Shown: in pieces, positions 10,198-60,177 of the stretch | Numbering within the stretch: position 1 is the first letter of the stretch | Layout of the letters: each line of letters opens with the position of its first letter | NCBI GenBank assembly: GCA_964030785.1 | Contig: OZ034979.1 | Span: 12,254,883 to 12,318,882, forward strand | Length of the DNA stretch: 64,000 nt | From: Siderastrea siderea | Taxonomy: Eukaryota > Cnidaria > Anthozoa > Scleractinia > Rhizangiidae | Direction of reading: 5' to 3' | Made by a program: the position numbers and the translations under genes | Notes under the pieces: model-generated | The model's input: only the letters and a program-made list of their open reading frames with translations | The model's database searches: none | Told to the model about the DNA's origin: nothing

Positions 10198-10214
10198 ATC
10201 AAGAGAAATCAGAG
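10198..10214. repeat. Target-site duplication, 5' copy (LINE)
   Basis: ATCAAGAGAAATCAGAG, identical to 15543-15559. It defines the 5' end of the LINE just upstream of its 5' UTR. Confidence 0.9.
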
Positions 10215-10282
10215 ACTGGATTAGCATACGGCAGCATGGCGGCCGGACGGACTTTTCCGTAGTCCGTTTCTTTACCTTCCCG

Positions 10283-11161: not shown

Positions 11162-11544
11162 GTTAATCACTTCCTTATTATCTGAGGTTACAGCTAGTTG
11201 AAATGTATTGCCTAAAACCATGTATTTTCCAGATATTTTTATTTAATAAGGCTTCGCCCTTGTATATAATTTCTTTTTTCAATCACGTTGAACGAAAGTA
11301 GAATTAATAATTAGGTCGCGGGGAGGCGTAGAGGGGACACCTTTAATTATCTTCATGAGTTTTAGCCATTCTCTAGTATCCCTTCTATACAATAAGCCGC
11401 TTGTCGGCTCTTTTAGTTTCTATTGTGTGTTTAATGTTAATTTATTTTCTTTTTTAAATAGTTGCAGTCAGGCACATCTCTTGGGAAATATCCCTTTTGA
11501 GCGGTGCGCATTTGTTGCCCAGTAATTTATGTTTTTAAGCAAAC

Positions 11545-20000: not shown

Positions 20001-20200
20001 NNNNNNNNNNNNNNNNNNNNNNNNNNNNNNNNNNNNNNNNNNNNNNNNNNNNNNNNNNNNNNNNNNNNNNNNNNNNNNNNNNNNNNNNNNNNNNNNNNNN
20101 NNNNNNNNNNNNNNNNNNNNNNNNNNNNNNNNNNNNNNNNNNNNNNNNNNNNNNNNNNNNNNNNNNNNNNNNNNNNNNNNNNNNNNNNNNNNNNNNNNNN
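20001..20200. other. Assembly gap (200 N)
   Basis: Exactly 200 N, probably a nominal-length gap rather than a measured one. Nothing can be said across it. Confidence 0.99.
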
Positions 20201-23789: not shown

Positions 23790-26014
23790 GGTTGACAATT
23801 TTTCCTTACGAAATAATATTGCCGAAACACGCGCAAAGGAAGACAATACCAGTATCCACACAAGCAAGCAAAAAGTTTCTACCCAATTTGGCTCGCTTAA
23901 TTAGAGCACTGATTTTTGGTATTGTTCTGTATGAATGGCTCATTAATGCAACAAAATTTACCGTTGTTAGACGCAATGTTTTAACTATTCCGAACATTTT
24001 AATTTTTTCGTGAAAATTATAGTGTCATTTCCGAGTTACTGAAAAAGGACGACCTATCTTCGCGGGGGGGTGTCAGCGAGGCAAAACTTCAAAGCCGTTT
24101 ATAGGCCATACGATGAGAACTGAGAGTGGTTCTATAGCAGAAGTGAGTCATCTTGCGTATATCTATAGATCTGCAAAATATGACACCAGTAACAAAAATG
24201 ACACAATTTTCCAGCTATGCCGCCAGACTATATATCACAAAGGAAAATGGAACAAAGAAGTACACTTGGCTATGCTGTTTTGCGATGTATATCTATACCC
24301 GTCATTTGTTCTAAGCTATCACGTTTGAAAGTCATCAGTTTGGATCTCTATAAAGTAATAATTCCTTCTTTTTACTTACCGTGTGGTACTAAATTTTTGC
24401 TTGTTGTAATTTTTGCGATTTTTGCGGGTTTTTGAACGATCCGCAAAAAAATAAATTCGCCCAAAAAAAAAAGTTACCGCAAAATTACGCCACTGTCGAA
24501 ATTACTTGCAAACTGCATCACCGTTTTCATGTCGTATAAAATTGTGTTGGTTCCCAGTAAAAAGGTCTCTTTCATTCATAAACAGAAAGAAATGAGAAAC
24601 AGAACATTCAGAAATAAAACGATGAAATTGAAGTCGGAAACACAACAAGGACGTAGCTACTAAAAGCTTTTCAGAAAAGGATCGTCTAAAGGTACTAATT
24701 GATTAACCGTTTAACGTGTTTTACATCTGCATGTTGTTCACATGTATTTTGATTGCATGTACTCAAAAACCGTGAATGTTTTAATTGCAGTAGAACTGGT
24801 CTTCCTGAAAATCGCACAAATTAATCCCCAGCAAGAAAAAAACAGTTTTTTTTTGTCCAATTGCAAAAATTATTTCCCTCAAAACACAAAAATATCACCA
24901 AAAGTTAAACTCCCGCTAATATTTAGGGATGAACGCTATTTGTACTAGATATGCAATGCTTTCGAGTATTTTCTCCTGAGAATTTCCAAAGATTACCAAG
25001 GTATCCTGAGGAAGATTCGAAGATCTTTCGGGCTAATAAGAAGCCAGTCTGAGCGCGGTGCTTCCTTAGAACGATATCCAGTGTAAGCAAGATTGTAGGT
25101 GAAGACAACAGACATTTATAACAGATAACATCCCCTAAGTATTCTCTGTCAAAGTGCGATCATGCATATCAATAATAGTTGATTAAGTTGACAGAGCTGG
25201 GCGCTATCCTTTCAGTCTCACTTACAGCAGATTCAGATTTGTCAACTGGGCAAACAATCCGTGCTGAAGAATCCTAACTTTATTCGATTGTAAAAATCTG
25301 AAGTAACAAGCACATACATGTAAAGAAATAGCAGTTTTTACAACTCCTACATATAACTAACTATTAATCCACGAGCATTGGAAGTGAGATTATAATCACG
25401 TCGTGTCCAACAAGCACGAGTGGAACAACTATTTTATTGAATGCTCAACTTCGGCAATCGTAACTGAATATTCTTTTCCATGAATTTGCCTGAAAGTGAA
25501 CCCTATTATGCGTGGTTGTATTGCAGAATCTGTATATAAGTTGAAACAGGACATTCAAGTCATTCAACGTTTGCCCTGATCAACGGCAACAAAAAAATTT
25601 TAACATTAAACGCAAAGTACCTGTAAGGAGATTTGAAAAGCCTTGACAGTTAATGACAGAATATGGAAACATTGCAAAAACCAAGCAAGACGGCTCCTGA
25701 GTAAAATATGTGTTCAGTTTGATGCCCGAAAAAAAAATAATCAAGCTGTGCTCAGCCTCTAGAATGACCTTTCGAGCTTGGATTTACAGATCAGATCCTC
25801 AAAATATTGGAGGACAATTCGGAACACTTTCGGGCTTTTTGAGAAACACTTTTCGAAAGCGAACGAGCCAAAGAAAGCCCCGAAATGTATTTCAGACCGA
25901 AAAGTTTCAGGACTATTTTTGAGAAACGAGCACCAGTTTATTCCTTGGCGGCTCCGCTTTTAGGCATGGCTAAATCTTTATATTCGGTAATACATAAAAG
26001 TATCTATTACGTAC
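23790..26014. other. Non-coding DNA with a dispersed repeat
   Basis: No gene was recognised. The stretch at about 25640-25975 resembles 56245-56520 (shared CTTTCGAG..., CACTTTTCGAAAG and GCCCCG blocks). The GGCTCCGCTTTTAGGC terminus at 25949 recurs at 41098. Confidence 0.5.
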
Positions 26015-26086
26015 AAGGCTACTAATTTGGCCAAGTTGGAAAAGACTCCATCAGGAAGTATCTCAATACCGTTTGAAGACAAATCC
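26015..26086 (-). CDS. LRR exon (72 bp), last one seen
   Basis: Acceptor AG above 26086 and donor GTACGT below 26015. It encodes DLSSNGIEILPDGVFSNL then AKLVAL, with phase-2 ends. No further LRR or LRR C-cap exon was recognised between 1 and 26000, so the gene either continues outside the window or ends in a form I cannot see. Confidence 0.65.
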
Positions 26087-32000: not shown

Positions 32001-35000
32001 GTTGGATGAAGCATTCTGTCATGTGTGAATACGGTATCGCGATCAGCGTAAATCCTTATAATTACTCAAGCAATAAGACGATTACTCATTTATCGTATGA
32101 CCGACAGATGACAGACGTGATTAGCAGTAAAGGCATTATGTTCACATTATTTGCTAAACAAAAACCACTGAACCGTTGCAAACAACTACCTGTACCTCAC
32201 AAAAGACTTATCAACGGCACCAACAAGAAAGACAAACAATAGACAAACCGACTTATCTTCCCAACAATAGACAAACGGTAATTTGAGTAACGAAAGACGG
32301 ATTGAAAAGCACCAATCACTCTTTACAGTCTTCAAAGCGAATCACGTGACAGTTTAATTGACAGACGACTAAAAGCATCGAGAATTCGTCGACCAATCAG
32401 GTCAACAACCAGAGACTCATAACACCTACTTCACTTGATTGTGATGATGACTTCACAAACAGTCCTTCTCAGGGCTACACTCACCCGGAAGATCATACCA
32501 CACCGACTTATATGACCTCTAGGTTCAAACCATTTACAGAGTAAAATACAAAGCTTAAAACTCCTGGGGCACATTGATGAACCTCGGATAACTCTCGTTC
32601 TTTATCGAATTTGGACCAAAACTACAAGTAAAGTTAATTGGGTTTTCAATTAAAAAACGACGGTGGAATCGTCGTCAACAGACCCAACGTTGAACACGAC
32701 ACTGCAGTTGTAACATCCGTCTACTGTAAGAAAGTGGTGCCTGAGACTGTCAGAGCTGGTTGGATTTTCGAGATGATTTTGTTGTTGGTCTTGGCCGCTT
32801 GTGATAAGGCCAGAAGTAGAACACGTGGCAGCTGAATTTGGAGCGACACAAGGATGCTGTCGTATAGTGACATAACTCCTTGGATTTCCATCGACCTTAC
32901 TGATAATATGAGAGATACACCATTATGTTCTGATTACCCTCATCGTAGACTTTCGGAGATCGTACGTGTGCAAATTGGATTTTCAATGACTGCCCTCAAA
33001 TTCTTGCCCGGAGGTTCCTAGTCCTGGGTGGTTTGTCAGACACTGAAAGAAGCCTAGCTTCCAGTGTTGTGCCTTGTGCCAATGTATGAGCTCGTGATCT
33101 TGTTTGTGGAATTTACCCGAATGTCTTGGCATTTGAACCACACTCTAGATCTTGTGTGGAGATTTGGGATGGGTGCAAAGTTCGATGGCCCAGAGGACTT
33201 CCTCACGACAGAACAGCGAATTCAATTTTGAGCTCAAAGTTTTTGAGCTTCATTTTGTTATGCCCTTGCCTAACCCTCTAGCCAAATTGTCCGGCGATCA
33301 ACCACATTAAGTTGTTGTCGAGTCTATTGGCCTACCACAGAATTTCCTCCCCTTGAAGGGTCCAAGTTTTCGCTGAGTTAGTACGTTTCCTACAGACGAA
33401 GGTACGCAACTGACAACCTTTCCTTTCAAGTTCCTTATTAGGGTTTCAGAATTCCCTCTCGAGTCAAGAGCACCTTGAATGAATTTGAGACCGTCAGTGA
33501 AGCTCTTATTTTTCCTCTTTGTTTCGAACTCAGGCATGAAATGGTTGAGTAATGAAGAGCAGGTTTCGAGTTTGTCTTTGTGTTTAAATAATCTGGCCCG
33601 TGTTAACGGACGTTTTGCCTCTGCTTATATTTTTCTTTTTTGTTTGTTATCTTAGTTTTGCTAAGACTGACCCGCTTGTCACGGGAAAGCCCTCGGCCAA
33701 TTGTCAAAGTTTTCAAATCGCCGCCTTCCGCATTTTTTTCAGTCATGCAACAATAAAACTAGCCATGGATAGATACACTTCATTTTAACTCACAGTTGTT
33801 CCAGATTGTTAAGGTTTCCGAAGACTCCATCCGGTAGAAATAAAATAGCGTTTGAAGATAAATTCCTGTGAAAGCATCGCAATAAACAGCAGATAAGGAA
33901 GTGAACAAATTATTGGTTATCTTTCCAATTACAGTATTGGAGAGGAGATGAATGATTTTTCTTTTCGTCACTACATTCTATACCATCGTTATCAACATCA
34001 ATATCACCATCCCCACTATCACTGAAAAAATATCATCATCGTTTCCATCATAACCATCTTTCACGTCGTCATCATTATTATCATCGGCATGATGCATCGA
34101 ATATCGAGAAACGCGTATTGTGCATAATTTACAGTGAGTACAACACAATCGAAACATAAATCGAATATCGTCCAACCCAACAATTTCTTTTATTATTTTT
34201 TTGCTGATATTATCTTTACTAGGTTTTTCTTTTTTATGCTGGGTCTCCTGTTCTTTACTTACAAATATTCAAGATTGTTCAGGTTGGCAAACACTCTTTT
34301 AGGGAGAAATGCAATGGAGTTTGAAGGCATATACCTGTGAAAATACATGTACATCATCTTTAAAACCAAAGTAATCGAACTGATCTTTGATTCTTTTTAT
34401 TTCTTTTAAAGGCACCCTCAGTTTATTAAGGTGATCATGAATAAATTCAAATGCATTGCGCATCTTTTCTGCTCACAATTTTTGGCGTGATTAGCTTGCG
34501 CAAGAGCGCCCGTACGTTCAGAACTTGATAGTTTTTCTTTGAAACTGAGCTGTTCAATGAAATAAATAGTCGTTTCTCCTAAACGAGATCGGTGACCCAA
34601 TTTTTTAATGCATAAATTTAAAGCCATACGGTTGAGTACCATATATCGCGATTTTAAGAATAGTTAAAAATTCTATAACACGTTTTTAGGTACAGCAGGA
34701 TATATGCGCACGCACGCACGCACGCAAAGAATTCGTTAATTTATTTCGTAATCTTAATTCCTCATCAACTAAAATAGTATACAATACAAGATATATGTCT
34801 ACTTTGGACTGCTGCAATATTTCAATGTGAGCAATAACGCTCTAACGACGTCATACTTTTCATTTCTGATTACTAGGGTTTCTCAGAAAAACCTGGCGGG
34901 TGCATAGTTGCTATTAATGGCTATCCATGCTGCACAAAAAAGAGCTGTGACCGCTTTGTTTTATAGCATGTTCGCAACATAATTACCAGTTGGACCGAGT

Positions 35001-38000
35001 TTTAGAGAATTTTAATTTTTTTTCTGTTTCTATGGAATCACCTTAAATGGGGTAGACATTAGCTGGCGAGTTTATAACCAAGGAAAAGCGTTGACCATTA
35101 CCAGGATCGCAGTGATTCTGTCTTTACGATGTGCTGAGTAATATATTTTTTACTTACAGCCATTCCAGATTTCTTAAGTTGGCAAAAACTGCGTCCGGTA
35201 ATGTAGTAATAGCGTTTGAGGACAAATACCTGTAAAAAAATTTCATTGAAGACTGAAAGAATTGTTGCTGTTGTTATTTTTCAGAATTGATGTTACTTTT
35301 AGTACACAGTTATATACACCTATGCACTATTTATCATTACATATTTAAGCAATTCATTTCTGGGCCTCCAGGAAGGCAGGGCCACAAGTTTAATCGGGGA
35401 GTTTATATTTTGACCGTTTTTTTTTTTTTTTTTTTTTTTGCTAAGACCTTTTACCACGGCAACAGAGCTGTTAACAAACCAGACTACAAATTGAGCTTTG
35501 TTTTTATGGAGAAATCTAACCGCTACATTTTTTCCTCTATTTATCAGCAAAAAGCTCTGAAATGAAAAACATGCAAGTGTTGTTTTTTTGCGACCACACT
35601 CTCTCCCTTCACAGAGATATAACAAACCGTTTCAATTGCAATCATTTTTAAAAGATATAAAATCTGTGCTAACCATGCGAAACTGTTCAGCCACCCTAAG
35701 AGCGGCTTTTAGGGACTATCGAGCAAAATCTGAATTTTGTTACAGGGGTTAGTTTTTTAAATAAATGTTTATTAAAATAAAAAAACACTTTTTTATAACA
35801 ATGTTTCTTTCTGCAAAGGTTAAAATCTACTTCCCAGCCATTTTATGTTTGCTAATAAATGATCCTAAGCAAGCATTAATCTCCAGAAGCCCTCTTTACG
35901 TTTCCTTTGACTTACAATCCCTCCAGATTTACCAGGTGGGTAAACGCTGTTTCTGGTAGATGTGTTATAGCATTAGAACTCAAGTCTCTGTGGAAAACAT
36001 TGAATCACCAGATATATAAAAAAACTTTTTAGGAAGCCCGTGCGAAGTGGAGCCGTCTTTAGTTTTCCTGCACACATTCCTTTGGTAGGTTCTTGAAGGT
36101 TAGGGATGATTGATTCGTATGTTAATAATATATATTGGGACGGGAGGGGCGGGTAAAATTGAGTTACCGATATATATTTACGATACTAGTTTTTGGAAAG
36201 TGATCCTGAATTAAACTTGTAGAAAAGAATGGTTTTCTACAAGCAAACTTGTTGTTGTTAAGCAAACGTTTTAAACCCAAAATTCTAGAGCGAAACATTT
36301 GTAATTTTTTTAGTATTATATTAGTTTATAACCAAGGAAAAGCGTTGTCTATTACCAGGATAGCAGTGTCGCTGTCTTTACAATGTGCTGAGTACTATGT
36401 TTTTTACTTACAGCGATTCCAGATTTCTTAAGTTGGCAAAAACTGAGTCTAGTAATGACGTAATAGCGTTTGAGGCCAAATACCTGTGAAAAATATCATT
36501 GAAGACTGAAAGAATTGTTGCTGTTGTTGTTTTTCAGAATTGATGTTACTTTCATTACCCAGGTATATATAGACTTATGCATTATTTATCATCATATTTA
36601 AGCAATTCACTCCTGAGCCTCTAGGAAGGCGGGGTCACAAATTTAGTCGAGGGAGTTTATATTTTGACCGGTTCTTTGTGCTACCACCCTTTTTACCACG
36701 GCAACAGAGCTGCCAACAAACGAGACTACAAATTGAGTTTTGTTTATTCGCAGAAATCTATCCGCTACATTTTTCTTCCACTTATCAGCAGAGCACTCTG
36801 ACAAATACTCATGTGCGGTGTTCTCATAAAATATCAAGAGACGAGTTTTTAGTAATTCGCTGTTCTTGTTATGACGTTTCGTTTTTGGACGCTAAACCGA
36901 ACGGTGCAATTTTTTTTCGTTCAATGCACAATCACAAAATTTAATTGCTTTATCACGGTAACAATGAAAAACATGCAAGTGTTGTTTTTTTGCGACCACA
37001 CTCTCTCCCTTCACAGAGATATAACAAACCGTTTCAATTGCAATCATTTTTAAAAGAAATAGGATCTGTGCTAACCATGCAAAACTGTTCAGCCACCCTA
37101 AGAGCGGCTTTTAGGGACTATCGAGCAAAATCTGAATTTTGTGACGGGGGTTAGTTTTTTAAATAAATGTTTATTAACTAAAGAAACACTTTTTTACAAC
37201 AATGTTTCTTTCTGCAAAGGTTAAAATCTACTTCCCAGCCATTTTATTTTTGCTAATAAATGATCCTAAGCAAGCATTAATCTCCAGAAGCCCTCTTTAC
37301 GTTTCCTTTGACTTACAATCTCTCCAGATTTACCAGGTGGGTAAACATTATTTCTGGTAGATGTGTTATAGCATTGGAACTCAAGTCTCTGTGGAAAACA
37401 TTGAATCACCAGATATATAAAAGAACTTTTTAGGAAGCGCATACGAAGTGGAGCCGTCTGCACACATTCCTTTGGTAGGTTCTTGAAGGTTAGGGATGAT
37501 TGATTCGTATGTTAATGATATATATTGGGATGGGAGGTGCGGGTAAAATTGAGTTACCGATATATATTTACGATGCTAATTTTTGTGAAGTGATTCTGAA
37601 TTAAACTTGTAGAAAAGAACGGTTTTCTACAAGCAAACTTGTTGTTGTTAAGCAAACTTTTTAAACCAAAAATTCTAGAACGAAACATTTGTAATTTTTT
37701 TAGTATTAGACAACAAATTGCCTCATGTTGAAAATAACTGCGCCTGTGCTGCCTGTTGGCATTTTCGCAAAAACTTGGTGGAGGGAGACGATAAAGAAGA
37801 CTGTTGAGAAGAGGTACTAATTCATGGAAAATTTTAGGCTGTTTTTTGGACTACGGAAACCGTGTTATATTGCCTAATGTGTTCCTAGAACTGATTAAAC
37901 ACAACCAGACGAGATGCTGTTTTAAAATCACATTTAAAATGTCAAGTGGAAACACTTGAGTAGAACTTTCTAGGAAACGTTCCTATCTTAAATGGATTGC

Positions 38001-41000
38001 ATTACATAACAACTTTAACCTGAGAATGACCTTTCCACAAGAAGGCAATCCATAAAAAAGCTACCACAATTCTATAAAATGCACGGTATTTTTTTATATT
38101 GTCAATATGAGAGCGGTAGGAGAATTCAATTTTGTAGATTTAATTCCAGTGGCTCACAAATAAACTTCAGCTTGTAAGGGCCGTCGTTGATAAAACACAG
38201 TTTCTATTTTAAATTTTAAATTGCATAAAATAAGAGGGGCGAGTTTTTATCTTGTTCTTTAAGCAGTATAGTACCCACGAAACGACTTTCTTTCTTCATT
38301 GAACATTGGTGACATAAAAAAAGATACATACAACTAGGATGGCGCAATGTTCAATTTTTTGCCATGCAAGTGAAGGGCATTGCTTAACGAAACAGCCGCC
38401 AATATGAATCTCCACAAAGTAGGCCTCCAACTAAGGTTTTTACAGTACGAGCAAATAGCTAAGTAAAACTGATTCAGTTTGTCACGGTAATAGAACTGTT
38501 TGAGTCTCTAACAATAGGCGAACTGACTGAACTTACAGAAATTCTAGATTTTTTAGGTTTGCAAACACTCCATTGGGAAGAAATGTAATAAGATTTGACG
38601 AAAGATACCTGTGAAAATGCATGTCGAAGAAAATTTTAACTAAATTACTTGTATCTTCGTTGTGATTTTTAAGTTTACTACTTTCAGATTTAACGAGCTA
38701 TGTGTCTCACCGGTTTCGTACTTTTCCCTGGTTTCTTTACAGTTGGGCCCTGTTTCTGCCCTCCCCCCACCCCGACTCCCGGATGAGGTGCTATCCATCC
38801 ATGTTAGGTTTCCCTGATGCCAGTTTATACTACTGAGTGGAAAGAGGCGATGTGTAATAAAGTTTCTTGTCCTAACGCGGTATCAAAGGCCAGAGTCTGC
38901 CAACCAACCTTTAAATTATTAGAAAAACAGCGTAGCAGGAATGTCGATACGAAGAAGTTTTTAAAGCCAATAATTAAAGCGGTCGCATGGTAGTAACCAA
39001 CGAAAGACATTGTCAAGAGTGGCGTCCACAAAGAGTTGTACTTATGCCATTTTTCTTTCTTTGAATTCTAGGTTCCACTGAAAATATTCAATCCAATAAG
39101 TTAGCTGGCCAACATTCAAATCTGGTTTAAGTGGAACATTTTCTAAATCAAGGGGTTAGGCTATTAATCTTGGACAATGGATCATACAAAAACTAATCAG
39201 TCGAAGCAAATGGAGCCATTAGTTATTCTTTACTCACAGGTATTCCAGATTTTTCAGATTGGCAAACACTGCGTCCGGAAGATATTCAATGGCGTTTGAA
39301 TATAAATACCTGTGAAAACAGCTCATTAAGTATTCAAAAGATTTAAATTTGGAATAAAGCCTCACAGGAGGTTATGGCTTTTGAAGTGTTTCTACTCAGT
39401 TGTTTCCTTGCTTTATTTTTGAAAGGTGTCACTTTCAGTCTCCTTTGGAAAAAAAGTTCTTAGCAAAACGTATTTTTAAAAGCGTGAAAAAGTCAAATAA
39501 AGGTGAAAAATTAATTTGCATAAAACAGAACCTATCATCCAATAATTAAATATCAAGTAATCAGCCAAGCTTTGTTTACTTCCGTTTTACTTGTTTTTTT
39601 ATTCCTCCACTCTTCTTTGGTCCTTTTGGCACCTGCTTTACTTGCTGCTTCACCACCATAATCTCATTCGAAATGTTTTTTAAGCACAACAAACAACCAT
39701 CCTTTTCTTTACAATGTGTTTGCTGTTCTTAACTTACAAATTTTCTAAATTTCTCAGGTCCGCAAACACCGCCTCAGGAAGAGACGTAATAGCCTTTGAA
39801 TACAGGTACCCGCAAAAACATCTGTCTTAGGTTTTGTGTAGCTATTCGCGAGTACCTAATGATTGCTTTTCTTTGCTTATCAACGCAGATGCAGTGAAAT
39901 TTGTATAAAGAAACTTTACATTGGTGAGAATTACTTAGGTAAGCTGCTGCTGAACTACCTAGCATGACGCCTATTTGTACAAACAGTCGTTCACCCGGGG
40001 AGTGTCCGTTATGAGTCCATAAAATATTTGACGGCAATAAGATGGTCGATGAACAACACAATACAAAATTATCATGAAAGTCTGTTTAGAAATCTCTCAA
40101 AATATCTGAAATATCTTTGGCAAGATATCCGAACCTTTAAAGCTTATTCTCTCTTTAATAGAGTTGTAAATCATAGTTTATTGTTTAATGAATTACGGTT
40201 ATGGGGATTATTACTAATAGCAGAGGGTGCTCATAGGGTTAGTAGTTAACTGACAATTGGCCAAAAAAAAAATAGCGGAGCCAGCGCGCTAGCGCGTCAG
40301 CGGAGCTCCATTGCTAAGGAAATTTGGTAACCTATCAAGCCAAGAAATTTGGTAGTGACGTAATAGTCACGTGACCGTCCGTCCGTACGTGCGTACGTAC
40401 GTCCGTCCGTCCGTACCACAGGGTTACCAATACACTTCATAAACTGGATATAACCCTGTGCTGATTCCCGTGTGGTTTTGGCGCGAAATCGCATGTTGAC
40501 CCCGCGTTGTAGCAAAACAAGCAAAGACAACAAAATTCAAAAACAAGTTTGTTAATGGAAAAAAAAGTTCAAAAAAATACTCAGTTGTCTTTTTGGTGGA
40601 AGGGCAAAAGTTCAATTTAGGCGAAAAAAAAAAGAGGCGATAAAGTTCAGGCGAAAAGTTTAAATTTGCCTCGTCGGTTCTGTTCGAACTCGGTCGGCAC
40701 ACCGCTTGAGTTCGCAGCTTTTCGCAGCGTTTTCGACGCCAAATATAGCAGAGCTAGTGCTTTTTGTTTTTTTCTGTCCACAACCATGGTTTTTACGGCG
40801 TTCCGAACACATTCTGACAGGAAAAACACCAGCATTTTCATGCTGATAGGCAGCTTGTCACGAAGAGAGAAATAAGTATCAAAAGTAACTTTAAAAATGA
40901 CAATAAACGCTCATGGCCTAATATCCGGCTTCTGACGCCAACGACCCGGGTTCGGCTCTCAGCGAGGGTAGGCATTTTTTTCTTTTATGTTTTATTATTA

Positions 41001-44000: not shown

Positions 44001-47000
44001 CCCATTAGCACACCCATAGCAGTATCAACGATTACAAGTACTATCATTGGTAAATTAAAAAGGTGTTGACAGATAAAAGTGAGTGTTATGTGACTATTTG
44101 CATATAAACATATTTAACTGAAGAACTCATTAATGTGAGCAAAAGGTATTTCAAAGTATAAAGCCCCATGCACACTAGGACAATTTCTATGACAGATTTT
44201 CTTTGACAAATGATTAGACCGTGCATACGGATGAGCAAGTTTTCTATGGAAAATGTTCTTGAATACGTGCTGGCAAAGGCTTTTTGACAAGCGCCTAAGA
44301 AGAGAAAGCTGTAAAATTGTTCAACGTGAGGAAGAAAATTCATCCAGAAATAAATGGTTCTCTTCTCAAGTAAAAGCAAGTATAAATATTTCATATGGCT
44401 CGGCAGCAGTACTTTTATTGCGAGCGTAGTTAAAAATGTGCAACAGAACCAGATAGTGGGCTTGCATGGCTCATGGGAAATGGAGCCTTGTAGTGTTTGT
44501 AGTATTAATTGTAGTAGTATTAATTGTAGTGTTTGTAGTATTAATGCTTCTGAAACAGCTAAATCACCAGGGTAGGCGCCATAAAAGCTTCAAGGCTCCG
44601 CTGAGAACTAATTTTCCACGAATTTATGAAAATGTCTTTGACGGCCCACCTACACGATCAAATCTCACGTTAGACAAATTTTCTTTGACCAATGAAAAAG
44701 GCCAGATTTCTTTTTTGCATGGAAATGTGACAATTCTCATTAAGATGACCAAATAAAATTTTGTCATAGAAAACTTATAAAAGTATTACAGGGTAGTGTA
44801 AATAGGAAATTGATAAGTTAAACAAAATGAAATAAAAATCAGATGTGTTAGTGGAAACTTTTGTAGGAAAAAAGTGCAACATTAAATTAATTCTCACTTA
44901 CAGCCGTTCCAATTTGCTAAGATTATCAAAGACTCCGGGACCTAGAAGGGAAATACTGTTGCGAGCCAAAGACCTGCAAAAATCAAATGCGATCGCCAGG
45001 GAACGTTTTGTCTTCGTTCAATAAGTTTCTTGCAGATTTTTTCTAAGAGAGATTGCCCACAATTCATTTCATTTTTATATTCATTTGATTTCAATTTTTG
45101 CTAGGATAAGTGTTAACCACCGCACCATTAGACTTTTTACTGTCGCGGGGAAGGAGTTAAAGTGCGTTCTCGCACGAATGACTGTAATTATCTTCTTTGA
45201 GCTCGTTACAAAAGAGAATTTGGTCGAGTGTGATCGGGTGACTGTTTCTTTAGATGCTTAAACACACAAGATTACCTGTTTTTTTAGGTTGGGTTCTTGC
45301 TTAGTTTGCTTGTTTTTATCGTAACTAACTGCTTTAATACCTAACATGGGGTGTGGGATGTTAATAAACATTCTTTATGGATGCACTTCTTGCATAAAGC
45401 ATCTATTCCTTCGTTCTCAATAAGCTTTTTTCCATTGCTCTCTCTATTAGCGTATTCTTAGAACTCAACTTTCCTAAGGCCTATCTATCAAGGCTTTGTT
45501 TTTTACTTACAGCCGCGTTAGTTTGGTCAGATTAACAAATGCTCCGTCGGGTACTGCTTTGATAGCATTTGACGACAAATACCTACAACGCCAACAAGAG
45601 GCTAGTAAATGACAATATCTGTCCGATTCACCCTTTTTCCTGAGTATTAAAGTTCACTATTATGATGGAAAGGTGAGTAAACCAATTTGGATAACGAGTA
45701 TTTAACACTCAAAAACTGGTCCCGAGGAAAACAGTGCAATGATGCTTCCCGAGAATCTCAATGTTTTTCGAGAAGAGGTCCAAAGAAAAATTGAGATTCA
45801 TGGAAAATAAAATTTATTACTTCCTTGCTGGGCCAGGTATTATATAGCAGAACAATTAGGCATACAAAACACGAATCAAATGATGCTGACAGATTATTAA
45901 ATTTGTAAAAATGCGAGTCACAAAGTTTTTCACTGAGACTAACGAATGCCATTTACACTTTTCAGGCGTAGGTTTTCTACCAAAAAGGTCCTTAAAATTA
46001 TCGGAAAGAACTTAATGAGCAAACTGACAATTGGATTCACAATTTGTTCATGTATAGTACTGAGACAAAGCCCATCCGAGTCTCATTACGTTCTTTCATC
46101 AAAGTTTCTTTTTAAAACTGACCGTGACTCTTCTCAAACCATTTTCATGGGAAAAGCTCTGAGCGTCCGCACAGCATTTCCAGTGGCAATTGCGTGTTCT
46201 TCGAATATTACTACGGAGGTAGCTTGTTAATTGGTATTTGTTTTCAAGGGGTATAAGCAAAACGAGTTTGATCGACAAACTTCCACATTTCCTTCTCTTC
46301 CACGAAAGAACAAAGATAGAGGAATAAACGACATCATAGCGACTCTCAGAGACGAAAACGTAGCGGGTACCAGCAGCGGCGACATTGCCATGTAATATAT
46401 CACGAGAAAGAGTATTTCATCAAGTTATCCAAACACTGAGAAGTGGGTTGAAAAACCGAGGCGCAGCCGCGTTTTTTAACTGACTTCGAGGTGTTTGGAT
46501 ACCTGATGAAACCCTCTTCGAGTTTTTTATATGGCTTCTCAAACCATTCATGATTCTTGGAGAAATTCTAAGCAAAACTTCGCACAATTTTATGGTAATT
46601 AAGCGGTATCCAAACTGTAGGAAACTGCGATATCCAAACATTATCCAAACCCCCGTCACGGTAGTGATTTCCTGATTTCCTATATAACTTATTCATGAGT
46701 TTGCATGAGAAGTTCTCTCTCTCACGTTATAGTTTTCGTAAATGTCGCCCTCTCAGAATTGTTGGCGAGACGCAGTTTCTTTGTTGACAGTGTCTAGATA
46801 CCCGGCAGCTGGGTACGAATGTTTCAAGACTAAAGACTCGGCAGTCCGAAATTTTCGAAGGATTTCGACGGAAAGGCTTATTCTAACGTTCTGCACGTAT
46901 TTGCTATTTGCTTAGAATTGCCAAGCGATTCAGACAAATCGCCGAGGCTGTGCACATCTACAGGTCTAAAGCTGACACAATAAATCGGAATTCATGCAGC

Positions 47001-48229
47001 CAGCGATGGAGAGAGTAACAGTTACCAGGGAACTTAATGAGGACTTTTAGGCGGAGCCTACAGATTCTTTTTTCCGCTTAATGACCACTATTGTCCCGCT
47101 CTCCCGATTTTACTTTTGTTTTACTTTTATTATATTTTGTCGTGTTTTTTATGTACAATTTAACAAGTTTCATTTTCTTATACGCGTCATTCGCTGCAGC
47201 ACAATAGCACTTTTGTTATTTACGCTAGCCGTTGTACCCGTTTTCTATAATTCTTTGTTCTATATCACGAACTCCGTTCTACACTGAACATATGTGAACT
47301 TGTATGCGCATATTTTAAGTACTATTTTTACATCGTACGCTGCTGAAGGAGCTTAGCTTCGGAAACGTTTCACACAGTTACGTTCACAGTTTCACGTTCA
47401 CAGTTTCACACAGTTACGTTTTGTAGTTGACGAATTTCCTGAGCTTGTGCATACTAGAAAATTGCAATGTTTGCGCCGTTTTCTACGCTAAAATTACGAT
47501 CAAATACGTCTGCTCACACGAAATGTCCCTAAAATACTTAGAGAAAGAAATTTTTGCAAGAAAAGCAACACAGTCGCAATCATGTTACTATGATGATGTT
47601 GCATGGCCTCGCTCACCACGAGTCCCCCACAGCTCAGTGGCTAGAGCATCCAACCGGCACCTGGAAGGTCATGGGTTCGACTCCCGTTGGGAGGACGCAG
47701 ATGTTTTTTTTTTTTTTTAGTAATACGACTATTTCAACATTTCTTCTTTAAACGTATTTTAGCTAGTCGTCACTCCATTATCATGTTTACGTTTATCGCA
47801 TTTGACATTAGGAGCCCGCAGAAGGCTGGCCTGTGTCACATATGAACGTAGTTGTATGGCCTCGCTCATCACGAGTCCCCCATAGCTCGGTGGTTAGAGC
47901 ATCCAACCGGCACCTGGAAAGTCATGGGTTCGACTTCCGTTGGGAGGACTCAGATTTTTTCCGAGTAATACGACGATTTCAACATTTCTTCTTTTAACGC
48001 ATTTCAGCTAGTCGTCATCCCATTGTCATGTTTTCATCCTCAAAGGTTTTAAAAATATAAATATATAACCGCTGGTTGATACAGAGCCTACAAATTATTT
48101 TGAATTATCGTTTACTTTTGTTGTTGTTTTGTTTTTTAGCTATAAGTGAGCTTGTTTGTTTGTTTGTTTGTTGTCTACCTTTTTAGCTTCCCAAATTTTT
48201 ATTTTAAGTAAAACAAAGATTTTTAATTA

Positions 48230-57826: not shown

Positions 57827-60177
57827 TATTAAATTCTCCCTACAGGAGAATACTAAATTAAATTCTCCCTATGGGTTATGTCCTTGAGGTCACACCTGTT
57901 TCTTGAGCGCAATAATGCAAACCTCGCACGAGAAATATCAATGCAGAATTAATAATTCAACTGTCACAATTTCATATCACTGAAAATCGTAAGTTATATA
58001 TTGATATGAAGGTCACGTGTATAATATTTTTTCCATGAAATAATGGTTCTTTCGCTGTTCTTAAAAGCTTCGAAAATATTCCGAAGCATTCTTGAAATGT
58101 TCGGAAATCTCAGTTAAAGTCTCAGCTAAATCTCAGCGAAATCTCAGCTAAAGTCTTATGAAAAATTGGGAATCTTCGGAGGTCTTCGGCTTAGTCAATT
58201 TGAGAGCAGTCTGACCGCTGACCACTATTTTTGGTGTTCTGGGGGTAATCCTGGCTGTTTCGAGGGTGTTCCGGGATATTATGGGAATTTCCTGGGGTGT
58301 TCCGGGGTTGTTCCGGGCTGTTCCGGGCTGTTTCGGGGGTGTTTCGGGGGTGTTCCGAGGTGTTCCAGGGGTGTTCCGGAATGTTCCAGGGTGTTCCAGG
58401 AGTGTTCCGGGATGTTCCGGGGGTGTTTCGGGGTGTTCCAGGGGTGGTCTGGGTTTTGACACCCCAATTTGTTTTGGTCCGAAGAGTTTTTGTTAGGCTA
58501 GCCTGTCTATGTATATTATTTTATATTGTCACCGATCGTGCAACTTTTGTTCGCTGTGATAATAATCAGTACTCACAGCAGTTCTAGATTCTCCAGGTTG
58601 GCAAACACTCTTTCAGGTAACACAGTAATGGTGTTGTAACGCAGATCCCTGTTGGAAATTCTCAAAAATGAGTGACAAGTTTGATTTCGAACATTTTAGT
58701 AAAAAGGTGTGATACGTTTTACTTACAGTCGTTCCAGATTCTCCAGGTTGGCAAACACTCTTTCAGGTAACACAGTAATGGTGTTGTAACGCAGATCCCT
58801 GTTGGAAATTCTCAAAAATGAGTGACAAGTTTGATTTCGAACATTTTAGTAAAAAGGTGTGATACGTTTTACTTACAGTCGTTCCAGATTCTCCAGGTTG
58901 GCAAACACTCTTTCAGGTAACACAGTAATGGTGTTGTAACGCAGATCCCTGTTGGAAATTCTCAAAAATGAGTGACAAGTTTGATTTCGAACATTTTAGT
59001 AAAAAGGTGTGATACGTTTTACTTACAGTCGTTCCAGATTCTCCAGGTTGGCAAACACTCTTTCAGGTAACACAGTAATGGTGTTGTAACGCAGATCCCT
59101 GTTGGAAATTCTCAAAAATGAGTGACAAATTTGATTTCGAACATTTTAGTAAAAAGGTGTGATACGTTTTACTTACAGTCGTTCCAGATTCTCCAGGTTG
59201 GCAAACACTCTTTCAGGTAACACAGTAATGGTGTTGTAACGCAGATCCCTGTTGGAAATTCTCAAAAATGAGTGACAAGTTTGATTTCGAACATTTTAGT
59301 AAAAAGGTGTGATACGTTTTACTTACAGTCGTTCCAGATTCTCCAGGTTGGCAAACACTCTTTCAGGTAACACAGTAATGGTGTTGTAACGCAGATCCCT
59401 GTTGGAAATTCTCAAAAATGAGTGACAAATTTGATTTCGAACATTTTAGTAAAAAGGTGTGATACGTTTTACTTACAGTCGTTCCAGATTCTCCAGGTTG
59501 GCAAACACTCTTTCAGGTAACACAGTAATGGTGTTGTAACGCAGATCCCTGTTGGAAATTCTCAAAAATGAGTGACAAGTTTGATTTCGAACATTTTAGT
59601 AAAAAGGTGTGATACGTTTTACTTACAGTCGTTCCAGATTCTTCAGGTTGGCAAACACGCTTCCAGGCAGAACTGTAATAGCATTGTAACGCAAGTCCCT
59701 GATAATAGAAGAAAGTGCATAAATGAGTGAAACTTTGATCTATAATCTAAAGAACCTTAGCGTGCATCGAAAAATGGCCTGTGATTCACGTTCGACAAGA
59801 TTTGGCGTCTAAAAAAGACAAATATTCGTGATCGCAGATTTGTAGTGTAGCAGTCAATAGAAAAGAAAATTAAATATAGCTCAAACGAAAGTAGGTACAG
59901 TACACCTCAACCGAAAAAAATGAGAAGTGGCCCAAGAAGAATGAACGGACAGTCCACAAGAGACAAAAATACAACCTAAATGTGCGCATAGAATGGTGCA
60001 AATTAAGCGCGACCCCTCTTAGTGTAAGAGTAATAATGCTGCTATACATAATCAGGCGACCTTACATTTTTTCAGTAATGACTGGACTGCATTTGCTGAC
60101 GCTTTCAAGGGATACTTTATTCCTGCATGTTATGTAATTTCCATAATACCATCCATTATAACATTGTGATCCACAGT
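26015..60177 (-). CDS. Multi-exon leucine-rich-repeat gene (partial), one LRR per exon
   Basis: The gene model is assembled by eye from splice sites and LRR periodicity. Exons 5' to 3' are an N-cap exon at 60066-60177, then 72-bp exons ending at 59698, 59548, 59398, 59248, 59098, 58948, 58798, 58648, 45582, 44973, 39809, 39309, 38608, 37388, 36483, 35987, 35229, 34334, 33865 and 26086. Each encodes 24 residues fitting (D/Y)LxxNxIxxLPxxVFxNL. All but one are bounded by AG acceptors and GT donors, and all have phase-2 introns splitting a Leu codon CT|G. One-LRR-per-exon with phase-2 introns is known in LGR-type (glycoprotein-hormone and relaxin) receptors and other extracellular LRR proteins. 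An extracellular or receptor role is therefore plausible, but no transmembrane part is visible. Signal-peptide exon, C-cap and 3' end were not found. Introns host several transposons. Splicing is predicted, not shown. Confidence 0.75.
26087..27033 (-). other. LRR gene intron between the 26.0-kb exon and the Harbinger element
   Basis: No exon or gene was recognised in about 950 bp. The sequence is unremarkable. Confidence 0.5.
27055..27290. promoter_or_regulatory. Subterminal palindrome cluster, left end of Harbinger
   Basis: TAGTTGTCGACAACTA or close variants at about 27056, 27076, 27094, 27124, 27154, 27212 and 27270. They are probable binding sites for the element's Myb-like protein or transposase; the right end has a matching cluster. 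Confidence 0.65.
27337..27690. mobile_element. MITE nested in the Harbinger left end
   Basis: The ends TAACGCAAATACGACGGCGACGG and, inverted, TTACGCAAACACGACGGCAACG (about 22 bp) enclose 350 non-coding bp. A related body with the same end lies at about 48690-48955, so this is a dispersed family. Confidence 0.65.
27980..29051 (+). pseudogene. Harbinger DDE transposase, broken
   Basis: A HARBI1-like nuclease. The upstream part reads IGLDERIAMALWR then SGDSCRTIS and MFGVGEST, with in-frame stops at 28069-28071 and 28099-28101 and a later shift. The main open part, 28187-28759, has CIGGRDGTHIPI (first Asp), AATMGHAGNFHDSTIMEKHS (second Asp) and ETGDSAFPI. Just after SSLRMVV, near 28638, the frame shifts: the expected LEQTFGLLKGRF with the catalytic Glu and the tail MACCILHNMCIF read in the next frame, which runs to 29051. 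At least two stops and two shifts make the enzyme non-functional. It would have cut and joined the element at TTA-type targets. Confidence 0.85.
29765..29992 (-). CDS. Probable C-terminal exon of the Harbinger accessory protein
   Basis: 74 codons: an acidic stretch (DANSEDGDDEVSVDCEEESE), then a basic nuclear-localisation-like stretch (PGKKRRAADKMARDKGVKRK) and an amphipathic tail. It lies 215 bp downstream of the Myb-like exon on the same strand. The acid-then-basic layout is common in the tails of these proteins. The splice join is inferred. Confidence 0.4.
   Translation of the reverse strand: MANNEVDRADANSEDGDDEVSVDCEEESEGRAPGKKRRAADKMARDKGVKRKSAKLSCWHQQLERQVKHKIKAQK
30207..30680 (-). CDS. 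Harbinger Myb/SANT-like accessory protein, exon 1
   Basis: 157 codons, the likely start being the second Met (MACVSKKN, about 30650). The C-terminal half has the trihelix/MADF-like pattern KRMWNLLLGEYIKAKD ... SPWVLTIAEAMKRY. In Harbinger elements such a protein binds subterminal DNA and brings the transposase to the nucleus. The divergent position near the right TIR fits. It probably splices to the acidic-basic C-terminal exon at 29765-29992. No internal stop was seen. Confidence 0.5.
   Translation of the reverse strand: MLIMQYVSKMACVSKKNTRESRFSNPGKQDIAVIICNEEPVNAEETILVKLRSKSLSNKVKTALYKIVCDQPVERGYEARSYKGVKRMWNLLLGEYIKAKDIIKTKSGVKNSPWVLTIAEAMKRYQCGARQSGPKCYFQVRKGILWEGRLDVAESFT
30722..30835. 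promoter_or_regulatory. Subterminal palindrome cluster, right end of Harbinger
   Basis: Variants of TAGTTGTCGACAACTA at about 30724, 30776, 30794 and 30810, mirroring the left end. Confidence 0.65.
30850..33793 (-). other. LRR gene intron sequence
   Basis: AT-rich, with no LRR exon or mobile-element protein recognised. Small open frames look random. Confidence 0.5.
33794..33865 (-). CDS. LRR exon (72 bp)
   Basis: Donor GTGAGT, acceptor CACAG. It encodes NLSSNAILFLPDGVFGNL then NNLEQL, with phase-2 ends. The next exon downstream is about 7.7 kb away across a Harbinger insertion. Confidence 0.76.
34263..34334 (-). CDS. LRR exon (72 bp)
   Basis: Donor GTAAGT, acceptor CACAG. It encodes YMPSNSIAFLPKRVFANL then NNLEYL, with phase-2 ends. 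Confidence 0.76.
35158..35229 (-). CDS. LRR exon (72 bp), duplicated pair
   Basis: Donor GTAAGT, acceptor TACAG. It encodes YLSSNAITTLPDAVFANL then RNLEWL and is the paralogue of 36412-36483. Confidence 0.76.
35916..35987 (-). CDS. LRR exon (72 bp), first copy of duplicated pair
   Basis: Donor GTAAGTC, acceptor CACAG. It encodes DLSSNAITHLPETAFTHL then VNLEGL. It is nearly identical to the 37317-37388 exon, with matching intron sequence on both sides. Confidence 0.76.
36412..36483 (-). CDS. LRR exon (72 bp), duplicated pair
   Basis: Donor GTAAGT, acceptor CACAG. It encodes YLASNAITSLLDSVFANL then RNLESL and is the paralogue of the exon at 35158-35229. Phase 2 at both ends; the LP of the consensus is LL. 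Confidence 0.75.
37317..37388 (-). CDS. LRR exon (72 bp), second copy of duplicated pair
   Basis: Donor GTAAGTC, acceptor CACAG. It encodes DLSSNAITHLPEIMFTHL then VNLERL. It is the paralogue of the exon at 35916-35987 and lies in the downstream half (by + coordinates) of the roughly 1.3-kb tandem duplication. The split Leu codon is CT|A or TT|A here rather than CT|G, a silent difference. Confidence 0.76.
38537..38608 (-). CDS. LRR exon (72 bp)
   Basis: Donor GTAAGT, acceptor CACAG. It encodes YLSSNLITFLPNGVFANL then KNLEFL, with phase-2 ends. Confidence 0.77.
39238..39309 (-). CDS. LRR exon (72 bp)
   Basis: Donor GTGAGT, acceptor CACAG. It encodes YLYSNAIEYLPDAVFANL then KNLEYL, with phase-2 ends and all key LRR positions conserved. 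Confidence 0.77.
39738..39809 (-). pseudogene. LRR exon with lost splice acceptor
   Basis: A 72-bp LRR unit in the correct place and phase, encoding YLYSKAITSLPEAVFADL then RNLENL, with a normal GTAAGTT donor. The bases expected to be the AG acceptor (39810-39811 read on the minus strand) are GG. The invariant Asn of the repeat is Lys. Because the exon is 72 bp and symmetrical, skipping it would leave the reading frame intact, so the gene could tolerate this loss. Confidence 0.7.
40237..44005. repeat. Region bounded by repeats of AGTAGTTAACTGACAATTGG
   Basis: Copies and variants of this motif occur at about 40239, 41133, 41161, 43916, 43947 and 43977, often followed by CCAAAAAA. They border a composite of smaller elements, including a GTAC/GTCC microsatellite at 40376-40420, a unit ending GGCTCCGCTTTTAGGC at 41098-41113, and the TTAA-flanked element. 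Confidence 0.5.
41549..43220. mobile_element. TTAA-flanked non-autonomous DNA element
   Basis: The ends GGTATCATGGTACCCCAAAA and, inverted, GGTATCAGGGTACCCCAAAT sit directly inside TTAA at 41545-41548 and 43221-43224. TTAA duplication is known from piggyBac and some Kolobok elements. The 1.67-kb interior has no transposase domain. Outside it, GCAGAAAGGGGAGGG (41398) and its inverted copy (43382-43402) suggest it landed inside an older inverted-repeat element. Confidence 0.7.
44902..44973 (-). CDS. LRR exon (72 bp)
   Basis: Donor GTAAGTG and an AG acceptor bound a 72-bp phase-2 exon encoding SLARNSISLLGPGVFDNL then SKLERL. The usual LP in mid-repeat is LG, otherwise it fits the family pattern. 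Confidence 0.72.
45511..45582 (-). CDS. LRR exon (72 bp)
   Basis: Donor GTAAGT lies below 45511 and an AG acceptor above 45582. It encodes YLSSNAIKAVPDGAFVNL then TKLTRL, a full LRR with Asn, Ile and the F-x-NL part conserved. Phase 2 at both ends. It is the first exon downstream of the tandem array, after an intron of about 13 kb that holds the BEL/Pao remnant and MITEs. Confidence 0.75.
45583..47600 (-). other. LRR gene intron, no gene
   Basis: Contains several ATCCAAAC-type motifs in both orientations at about 46423-46655, probably a dispersed repeat. No exon was recognised. Confidence 0.45.
47622..47696 (+). ncRNA. tRNA-like sequence (pseudo-tRNA or SINE head), copy 1
   Basis: 75 nt folding as a tRNA: acceptor GTCCCCC/GGGAGGAC with one mismatch, D arm GCTC...GAGC with an A-box-like sequence, and T arm with GGTTCGACTCC (B box). 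The anticodon arm is irregular and lacks the T before the anticodon, so it is probably not a functional tRNA. A T-run at 47704-47719 follows. A second copy lies 253 bp on. Confidence 0.6.
47875..47949 (+). ncRNA. tRNA-like sequence, copy 2
   Basis: 75 nt, colinear with 47622-47696 with a few substitutions (GCTCGG, GGTTAG, GACTTCC). The sequence downstream (AGTAATACGAC...TTTCAACATTTCTTC) is also duplicated, so the repeat unit is larger than the tRNA-like head. Confidence 0.6.
48231..48273. repeat. (AAT)n microsatellite
   Basis: About 14 AAT units. Confidence 0.95.
48690..48955. mobile_element. Second copy of the dispersed MITE-like repeat
   Basis: It begins near CACGGCGACGGCAACGAGAA and is colinear with 27352-27590 (GCAAAACAATGACT, CACGTGCGTTA, AACACACGA and GTTCGG blocks). 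The far end is not clear. The short minus-strand frame here shows no domain. Confidence 0.55.
50437..50873 (+). repeat. Inverted repeat arm A around the BEL remnant
   Basis: About 440 bp, reverse-complementary to 54400-54843 with small differences. It includes TTTCTTTCAGGCTCTTCTTATC and an open stretch ending AAAGGATTGTACTTAAACAT. Confidence 0.8.
51732..52199 (-). repeat. Probable BEL/Pao 3' LTR
   Basis: Read on the minus strand, a purine tract AAGGGGGGAG is followed by TGTGTCACG..., which runs about 468 bp to ...GGTCCAACA, giving TG...CA ends. It lies directly after the pol end of the BEL remnant. No 5' LTR was found for comparison. Confidence 0.5.
52200..54400 (-). pseudogene. BEL/Pao retrotransposon pol remnant (RNase H region, integrase)
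   Basis: Reading from 54400: HGFGDASEKAYC and LLSSKTRVAPLSRQSIPRLE (Pao RT/RNase H region). Then NPADIGSRG and RDHHISTLLVRQAHERVHHD with CTVCRRYEGRG (integrase zinc-binding HHCC). Then FTYVGVDYAGPLY, SADTFIRCLRR and TPEIIVSDNAKTF (integrase core Asp residues), and VEGTLNSRPLTYLS near 52770 (core Glu region). It occupies at least four minus-strand frames, with shifts near 54350, 54080, 53160 and 52850. Protease and RT proper are absent: the element is truncated exactly where the inverted arm at 54400 begins. Dead insertion in an LRR gene intron. Confidence 0.85.
54400..54843 (-). repeat. Inverted repeat arm B around the BEL remnant
   Basis: Reverse complement of 50437-50873. BEL coding sequence starts immediately inside it. 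The open stretch here (VLFGRFEKVPILPNFKGIFF) has no BEL homology I recognise. Confidence 0.8.
55382..55683. mobile_element. Foldback MITE, about 90-bp inverted repeats
   Basis: The ends GTCGCGGCTACACGAGCGAT and, inverted, GCCGCGGCTACAGGAGCGAT continue as near-perfect inverted copies (TTTTTTGCTTGCGATGGTGA). TTTA on both sides (55378-55381, 55684-55687) looks like the target duplication. No coding capacity. Confidence 0.85.
56513..56640 (+). repeat. Minisatellite of GGAACACCCC units, orientation 1
   Basis: About ten degenerate 9-12-bp units, followed by CAGTGGTCAGCGGTCAGAC. The same unit and flank recur inverted at 58200-58445. Confidence 0.8.
57757..57822. repeat. (AAT)n microsatellite
   Basis: About 20 AAT units, with one early interruption, followed by ACTTTATTAAATTCTCCC, which recurs in part at 57853. 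Confidence 0.95.
58240..58445 (-). repeat. Minisatellite of GGAACACCCC units, orientation 2
   Basis: About 20 units reading TGTTCCGGGGG on +, preceded by the inverted flank GTCTGACCGCTGACCACT. Open frames across it on both strands (VFRGVPGVF / TPEHPGT types) are artefacts of the repeat. Confidence 0.85.
58571..59710. repeat. 150-bp exon-intron minisatellite
   Basis: A direct tandem repeat of period 150 bp in about 7.5 copies, each unit made of one LRR exon and one short intron. Among the internal copies I see only one variable site, G or A at the position seen at 59129 and 59429 (A) against the same place in the other introns (G). The outermost exons are more diverged, the usual sign of homogenisation in the array centre by unequal exchange or gene conversion. 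A collapsed or expanded assembly of this array is possible because the copies cannot be told apart by short reads. Confidence 0.9.
58577..59698 (-). CDS. Tandem array of eight 72-bp LRR exons
   Basis: Eight exons lie on the minus strand at 59627-59698, 59477-59548, 59327-59398, 59177-59248, 59027-59098, 58877-58948, 58727-58798 and 58577-58648. The spacing is exactly 150 bp throughout, giving a 72-bp exon and a 78-bp intron. The six middle exons are identical as read and encode DLRYNTITVLPERVFANL followed by ENLERL. The 5'-most exon differs (NAITVLPGSVFANLKN), and the 3'-most ends ENLELL with donor GTGAGT. Every exon starts with the G completing a split Leu codon and ends with CT, so the array is open across all eight repeats. 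Six identical 24-mers give a highly uniform solenoid stretch right after the N-cap. Confidence 0.8.
60066..60177 (-). CDS. LRR N-terminal cap (LRRNT-like) exon
   Basis: This is a 112-bp open exon on the minus strand, with an acceptor AG just above 60177 and a donor GTAAGG just below 60066. It enters in phase 1 and leaves in phase 2. The peptide is cysteine-rich (DCGSQC ... ITC ... VSKC) and ends SPVITEK plus AT. Joined to the first LRR exon at 59627-59698, it reads EKM-DLRYNAITVLP, exactly the usual passage from an LRRNT cap into the first repeat. The matching phase and the conserved context make it the best candidate for the exon preceding the LRR array. Cys spacing is not textbook LRRNT. 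The upstream exon, which should carry the signal peptide and start codon, was not identified; a possible 20-bp exon lies near 60355-60375, but I do not call it. Confidence 0.6.

Follow-up and report, generated by a model that had tools for sequence, protein, structure and literature searches.

Probable tandem amplification of a leucine-rich repeat exon together with its intron in a likely Ig-LRR receptor gene of the coral Siderastrea siderea

Results

In the window analysed here (64,000 nucleotides of Siderastrea siderea DNA, contig OZ034979.1), the minus strand carries eight 72-bp phase-2 leucine-rich repeat (LRR) exons at an exact period of 150 bp, starting at 59698, 59548, 59398, 59248, 59098, 58948, 58798 and 58648. 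TRF, run on the window, reported 58570-59701 with period 150, 7.5 copies, 97% matches, 0% indels and a score of 2138. An acceptor AG precedes every exon of the array (8/8), and the donor is GTAAGT in 7/8 and GTGAGT at the last exon. The six interior exons, 2 to 7, are identical (59477..59548, LDLRYNTITVLPERVFANLENLER; 59327..59398; 59177..59248; 59027..59098; 58877..58948; 58727..58798; these and all features below are on the minus strand). Exon 1 (LRR1, exon A; 59627..59698, LDLRYNAITVLPGSVFANLKNLER) differs from them at 12 sites, none outside positions 4-56 (dN 0.079, dS 0.627), and exon 8 (LRR8, exon B; 58577..58648, ending LEL) at three, positions 64, 69 and 70. Exons 1 and 8 differ from each other at 15 sites, and across these the interior exons switch once between the two: their positions 1-63 are those of exon 8 and their positions 57-72 those of exon 1, which makes them single-switch hybrids.

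The seven 78-bp introns of the array have a single variable site, unit position 120, which reads C T C T C C C in order. Comparison at a lag of 150 bp gave a repeat tract of 1057 bp (58586..59642), about seven units with one variable site per unit, in which mismatches are confined to position 120 and the mean difference among the seven units is 0.32%. TRF and the exon and lag comparisons thus confirm an earlier, sequence-only reading of this DNA, which had described eight phase-2 LRR exons at 150 bp, six of them identical, with introns varying at one site. The repeat unit does carry one whole exon, as that reading held; since the tract starts and stops within exons, it is more exactly a circular permutation of exon plus intron. 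Our check of splice sites and exon phases also bears out that gain or loss of a unit preserves phase 2 and the splice sites.

The array is preceded by a cysteine-rich N-cap exon, phase 1 in and 2 out (60066..60177, DCGSQCYNGWYYGNYITCRNKVSLESVSKCSPVITEKM; tblastn E 1.5e-7 with Oculina P0003; AG/GTAAGG). The same exon criteria yielded 12 further LRR exons on the minus strand of the window, and no LRR exon was found on its plus strand. Exon search and splice sites place LRR9 (45511..45582), LRR10 (44902..44973), LRR11 (39238..39309), LRR12 (38537..38608), LRR18 (33794..33865) and LRR19 (26015..26086). LRR13 (37317..37388) and LRR14 (36412..36483) are the first copy, and LRR15 (35916..35987) and LRR16 (35158..35229) the second copy, of a duplicated exon pair, a recent duplication in which dN about equals dS. 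LRR17 (34263..34334) and LRR20 (25226..25297) show 0/72 and 18/72 differences, respectively, from exons of a sister gene described below. One more LRR exon (39738..39809) is decayed, having lost its acceptor AG; its counterpart in the sister gene has both an acceptor AG and an uninterrupted frame. Joined, the 21 exons of the gene model form one continuous open frame of 517 amino acids. LRR20, the last LRR exon found on the window's side, lies 5 kb from a 200-N gap, and the 3′ end of the gene is across the assembly gap. Outside the window, at a distance of 5.3 kb, is an Ig exon; no CUB exon for this gene was found in the 244 kb examined. The only receptor-tail match on the same strand (C14:12220395-12222758) contains one in-frame stop.

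The relatives of the array gene are coral Ig/CUB-LRR proteins, mostly multi-pass, with CUB, Ig, Cys-rich and mostly membrane-spanning parts. One of them, P0121, is predicted to form a regular LRR solenoid (pLDDT mostly >90, residues 411-710), and in Foldseek the closest folds to this predicted structure are the LGR4/LGR5 ectodomains. Chains of variable lymphocyte receptors (VLRs) were also among the matches of the family searches. Given the N-cap exon before the array, the Ig exon nearby and the domain make-up of the coral relatives, the product is likely a cell-surface receptor; its LRR domain is likely extracellular, as the sequence-only reading had supposed.

About 80 kb from the array gene lies an inverted copy of it, the sister gene, which at the position of the array has only exons A and B, separated by a 79-bp intron. 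Its exon A (pA) shows 6/72 differences from array exon 1 and 16 from exon 8; its exon B (pB) shows 4/72 from exon 8 and 15 from exon 1. The intron between them matches the array intron at 73 of 79 columns, with one gap, and the intron that follows exon B is homologous in the two genes over a 37-base stretch. The remaining exons are collinear. For five extra LRR-exon matches of the sister beyond its LRR20 no counterparts were found on the window side. The sister gene keeps N-cap, A, B, LRR9 and so on in order on one strand; B and LRR9 are about 10 kb apart. This order, and the agreement of exon phases, argue against the array exons and those at 25-46 kb being two separate genes, as might be supposed from the 13-kb intron with Pao-type element fragments between the two groups; we regard such a division as very unlikely.

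The missing 3′ LRR exons and the stop in the tail match mean that the array gene may be broken or truncated. Together with the decayed exon and the near equality of dN and dS in the LRR13-16 pair, they would fit a real but neutral minisatellite, in a gene that is non-functional or tolerates any number of LRRs. Nevertheless, 21/21 model exons have an open frame and are flanked by AG and GT, and in the comparison with the sister gene the exons have diverged less than the introns (94.2% identity over 760 exon sites, 88.0% over 10,823 aligned non-exon sites). Leaving aside the N-cap and the decayed exon, the same comparison over 12 exons (864 nt) gives dN 0.051 and dS 0.137, a ratio below 0.4; for the N-cap the values are 0.068 and 0.423. 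Neutrality is thus possible, though we think it unlikely.

Two LRR exons at a 150-bp period with a 78-bp intron also occur at a third locus, 4.9 Mb away (C14:17231704-17231925). It is a weak outgroup for a two-exon ancestor, because a further LRR exon pair, spaced at 139 bp, lies upstream of it at half a kb, and because the exon B of this locus is scarcely nearer to exon 8 (21/72 differences) than to exon 1 (24).

The two exons of the sister gene, and the fact that the array is known from one assembly, could also suggest that extra units were introduced during assembly into a gene of two or three exons. However, the whole tract, at 1.06 kb, is shorter than one long read, and an assembly of 402 contigs for 831 Mb (C14 is 42 Mb) points to long reads. 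Moreover, an assembler duplicating a single unit would not make the intron variant alternate C T C T, and the hybrid interior exon is absent from the two-exon sister. We give an artefact very little credence.

Discussion

We propose, with a probability of roughly 80%, that the array arose by tandem amplification of an LRR exon and its 78-bp intron in a likely coral Ig-LRR receptor gene, most likely growing through unequal exchange and subsequent expansion from a pair of exons to eight. The ancestor would have had two neighbouring LRR exons, A and B. A first unequal exchange within the stretch they share, positions 57-63, would yield the hybrid seen in the interior, and later expansion at the 150-bp register would have produced six hybrid copies, eight exons in total. 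The hybrid footprint implies that the ancestor had only two such exons; together with the two-exon sister gene, it makes it most likely that eight were made from two; the sister, in the same genome, gives the expansion direct comparative support. The alternation of the intron variant suggests that two units were duplicated as a pair at least once during the later expansion. The footprint left by unequal crossing-over would be no different from that of gene conversion or replication slippage. Judged by divergence, 0.3% between units versus 6-12% between sister introns, the expansion was most likely recent relative to the gene duplication. The outer exons do differ from the interior, as had been noted, but they are not merely decayed copies, the interior being a hybrid of the two; ongoing homogenisation, proposed earlier, is unnecessary, since one hybrid-forming exchange accounts for both.

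That every exon has consensus splice sites and is symmetric in phase 2 suggests that all eight are spliced in. This would add six identical 24-residue modules to the N-terminal side of the LRR solenoid, after the N-cap and ahead of LRRs 9-20, which are more diverse. The number of units may differ between haplotypes, and the effect would be on ectodomain length or avidity (a repeated D-R-Y face) rather than on the variety of specificities. VLRs of lampreys and hagfish are assembled somatically from many different LRR cassettes. The array gene has modular 24-residue LRRs as they do, but identical ones, in an ordinary spliced germline gene; as these would change length or avidity and not specificities, the likeness to lamprey VLRs drawn earlier is weak.

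Variable skipping might instead give cells receptors of differing LRR number from one allele. The array exons are all symmetric (phase 2-2) with splice sites common to all, so any skip preserves frame, and brown-algal ROCO genes, according to PMC11378527, have splice variants. Against this, the GTAAGT donors in 7/8 favour constitutive use, and identical exons would offer differences in length only, not sequence; we consider such splicing improbable.

The same source describes the ROCO genes as having one 72-bp phase-2 exon per LRR (Zambounis 2012 as cited in PMC11378527), as in our array, and an LRR set altered by tandem exon duplication. It presents their exons as differing, shuffled and joined to ROC-COR GTPases, whereas in the array an exon-intron unit of exactly 150 bp recurs with identical exons, and the gene is an animal Ig-LRR gene. 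DMBT1/SALSA likewise has tandem copies of an exon-encoded extracellular domain, with alleles of 7 to 21 SRCR domains whose number alters bacterial binding, as reported in PMC9038570; its units are far larger and its polymorphism proven. In the innate immune Rlec lectins of prawns, PMC7536079 reports that repeat number (1-9) alters activity and proposes slippage, but those repeats, of 33 or 30 bp, lie within one exon; here a whole exon and intron are repeated. Gonadotropin-receptor/LGR genes have LRR exons of similar size with phase-2 introns (PMC11378527), and LGR4/5 ectodomains are the nearest folds to the coral relative; in the sources consulted we found no exact exon minisatellite described for them.

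Genes with one LRR per exon, and copy-number variants of exon-encoded domains, are already known. Here, if all eight exons are spliced in, a candidate receptor would have had its repeat domain lengthened by six identical modules.

An exon minisatellite of leucine-rich repeats

We noted that TRF placed a tandem repeat with a period of 150 bp at 58570-59701 of the window (score 2138). The repeat comprises eight leucine-rich repeat (LRR) exons on the minus strand, all 72 bp long and open in phase 2, the first base of each completing a codon, for leucine or methionine, that starts in the preceding exon. AG stands on the acceptor side of all eight, and the donor is GTAAGT after seven and GTGAGT after the last. 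Six of the eight exons are identical, and the seven introns between them, each of 78 bp, vary at one site only (in order, C T C T C C C). Indeed, head-to-tail units with a period of 150 and a mean difference of 0.32% extend over a 1057-bp tract, which bears out the sequence-only reading of the array as a tandem minisatellite of near-identical units. As read from the sequence, an array intron that stays in the mRNA would bring a stop codon at once; inclusion of array exons thus depends on splicing. Another minisatellite, of the 11-bp type (GTGTTCCGGG), occupies 58233-58453, with its start some 120 bp beyond array exon 8 on the downstream side, and there is a comparable stretch in inverted orientation at 56529-56733.

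The gene containing the array and its family

A search by fixed criteria for LRR exons of 57-98 nt and a few longer lengths, on both strands of the 64-kb window, found 20 on the minus strand and none on the plus strand. All 20 modelled LRR exons have the same structure, one LRR per 72 bp with phase 2 on both sides, a type of exon also known, according to PMC11378527, from brown-algal ROCO genes and gonadotropin receptors. A profile scan added a decayed LRR exon at 39809-39738, which has lost its acceptor AG. Directly before the LRRs, and joining array exon 1 in frame, is a cysteine-rich N-cap exon of 112 nt (60177-60066, minus strand; E 1.5e-7 with the coral protein P0003). An Ig-like exon outside the window (12324141-12324398 of the contig, minus strand, tblastn coordinates; E 1.3e-24 with P0004) is placed before the N-cap, a linkage that rests on strand and order. 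The 21 exons joined give 517 stop-free residues. The scan of joined exons shows a 24-residue LRR consensus recurring in tandem (Pfam LRR_8, E 3.2e-161), as in LRR proteins of the extracellular type.

The first named matches for the joined LRR part were proteins of Oculina patagonica (P0001, 50% over 76%; P0121, 52% over 95%), and a tail search with the relative P0128 returned 50 proteins: 47 from Oculina, one each from Pocillopora and Stylophora, and one unnamed. The relatives scanned combine CUB, Ig-like, LRR and ephrin-receptor-like or DUF7630 parts, and 11 of the 13 examined have several hydrophobic segments, which suggests that the window gene likely encodes a surface receptor of a stony-coral-like cnidarian. 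The exon structure had first suggested a glycoprotein-hormone-type LGR. We abandoned this identity; the named relatives have instead CUB/Ig parts and an unnamed multi-pass tail, and none of seven relatives scanned matched a 7tm family. CUB is a part of several relatives but not of all; across the 244 kb examined, no CUB match reached E <= 1e-3. When CUB, Ig, Cys-rich and TM exons were sought inside the window, the N-cap alone was found. The AlphaFold model of the membrane-part relative P0227 had a mean pLDDT of 46.8 and was set aside.

The window also holds mobile elements and tRNA genes. A long LINE-like open frame (11542-15300, plus strand) with endonuclease, reverse transcriptase and zf-RVT domains is preceded by a smaller frame at 10187-11158. 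Pieces of a Pao-type retroelement (Peptidase_A17 and Integrase_H2C2; 52869-54618, minus strand) lie inside the 13-kb intron between LRR8 and LRR9, a DDE_Tnp_4 transposase frame is at 28118-28756 (plus strand), and two tandemly duplicated tRNA genes, 86% identical, are at 47598-48033 (plus strand).

Origin of the array

Of the 72 sites, 15 distinguish the first array exon, A, from the last, B. At the 12 of these that fall in positions 4-56 the interior exons match B, and at the other three (64, 69 and 70) they match A; the pattern is a single switch between 57 and 63, for which we roughly estimate a chance of ~0.001 if every site were drawn at random. One unequal exchange between side-by-side A and B would yield such an interior hybrid exon, in which the point of exchange is marked to seven bases. 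Homogenisation, claimed earlier as ongoing inside the array, was considered in the form of conversion and is not needed, since the single-switch hybrid fits one unequal exchange of A and B. Coral genomes are described in PMC10236652 as rich in tandem gene duplicates, conversion being said there to be uncommon. Upstream of exon 1 is a remnant resembling the array intron (score 29, reached by none of 500 shuffles; best shuffle 28), which hints at an older duplication as the source of A and B themselves. No such likeness was found after exon 8, where the score was reached by 369 of 500 shuffles.

The window occupies 12254883-12318882 of its contig, in an assembly of 831 Mb and 402 contigs. A search of the 244 kb around it revealed a sister gene on the plus strand of the same contig at 12395210-12434001, inverted and divergently oriented relative to the window gene; its N-cap (12395210-12395321, plus strand) is ~80 kb from the window gene. 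The order there is exon pA, a 79-bp intron, exon pB, and then counterparts of LRR9 to LRR20. Exon pA is separated from exon 1 by 6 differences and from exon 8 by 16; pB is 4 differences away from exon 8 and 15 away from exon 1. Because the sister gene has just these two, closest to A and B respectively, the two-exon ancestor predicted from the footprint is, by sequence comparison, present there as the pA-pB pair. Two LRR exons with a 150-bp period and a 78-bp intron also occur at 17231704-17231925 of the contig, a weaker witness because a further LRR exon pair, 139 bp apart, sits just upstream.

Aligned with the sister intron, the array intron shows 5 mismatches in 78 bases and one gap; outside the exons the two genes differ at 12% of 10,823 sites, as against 0.32% between units. 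From these divergences we infer that the present units trace back to a common ancestor much younger than the duplication of the gene, through either expansion or turnover. A second and older tandem duplication, at 35069-37708, doubled an LRR exon pair of the window gene (stretches 94% and 84% identical); LRR13-14 is one pair in the sister gene versus two in the window gene. The decayed exon of the window gene has an intact form in the sister gene.

Evidence for and against a living gene

Open frames and splice sites in all 21 modelled exons argue for a living gene, as do a dN of 0.051 versus a dS of 0.137 over 12 exons compared with the sister, and identity with the sister of 94.2% at exon sites versus 88.0% at non-exon sites. 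Against it, five sister LRR-exon matches beyond LRR20 had no counterpart found on the window-gene side, where a 200-N gap lies (20001-20200, 5 kb past LRR20; the window has no other N run). LRR20 is unusually diverged from the sister exon (18/72), and the sole same-strand match to the Cys-rich/membrane-spanning tail, 57 kb downstream and across the gap, has one stop. A third Ig exon copy between the two genes (12354374-12354604 of the contig) also holds a stop, and in the LRR13-16 duplicates dN is near dS; both were counted against.

Comparison with known repeats and predicted effect

The sequence-only reading had likened the array to the modular diversity of variable lymphocyte receptors. The likeness is weak: in those receptors diverse LRR cassettes are joined somatically, whereas here six of eight array modules are identical, within one spliced gene. 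The longest exact run of lag-24 type is 147 residues in the predicted array, 16 among 58 coral-family proteins, and 44 among 272 proteins fetched, in P0213, an LRR protein with a Pfam 7tm_1 domain from the brittle star Amphiura filiformis, where it is perhaps a similar expansion. Adjacent LRRs in the coral family agree at no more than 21 of 24 positions, a strict pattern having found LRRs in 22 of the 58 proteins. Our literature search, which reached few subscription journals, found no publication describing a minisatellite built of LRR exons. The novelty is that, in an animal receptor, LRR exons and their introns form an exact minisatellite, which bears a crossover mark and has an unamplified sister.

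The variable strand positions are D, R, Y and T in all array modules, and mostly S and S in LRR9-20. Each added unit would give 24 residues and one solenoid turn adjoining the N-cap. Since the modules are identical, the effect would likely be on reach, spacing or avidity, by analogy with two known cases: DMBT1 with fewer SRCR domains binds bacteria 30-40% more weakly (PMC9038570), and the activity of prawn Rlecs goes up with repeat number (PMC7536079). We give a chance of about one in five to the array being an exon minisatellite that is hypermutable in the germline, in a coral surface receptor whose number of identical N-terminal LRRs differs by haplotype, and perhaps by somatic lineage of the colony, and so adjusts its reach or avidity for microbes, symbionts or other colonies.

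At this locus an LRR expansion can be seen while the genome still contains its before-state, the sister gene representing the two-exon start. The 1.06-kb tract is short, has unique flanks and can be sized by one PCR in many colonies, which opens to direct test the question of rapid length change in the repeat receptors of animals that lack adaptive immunity.
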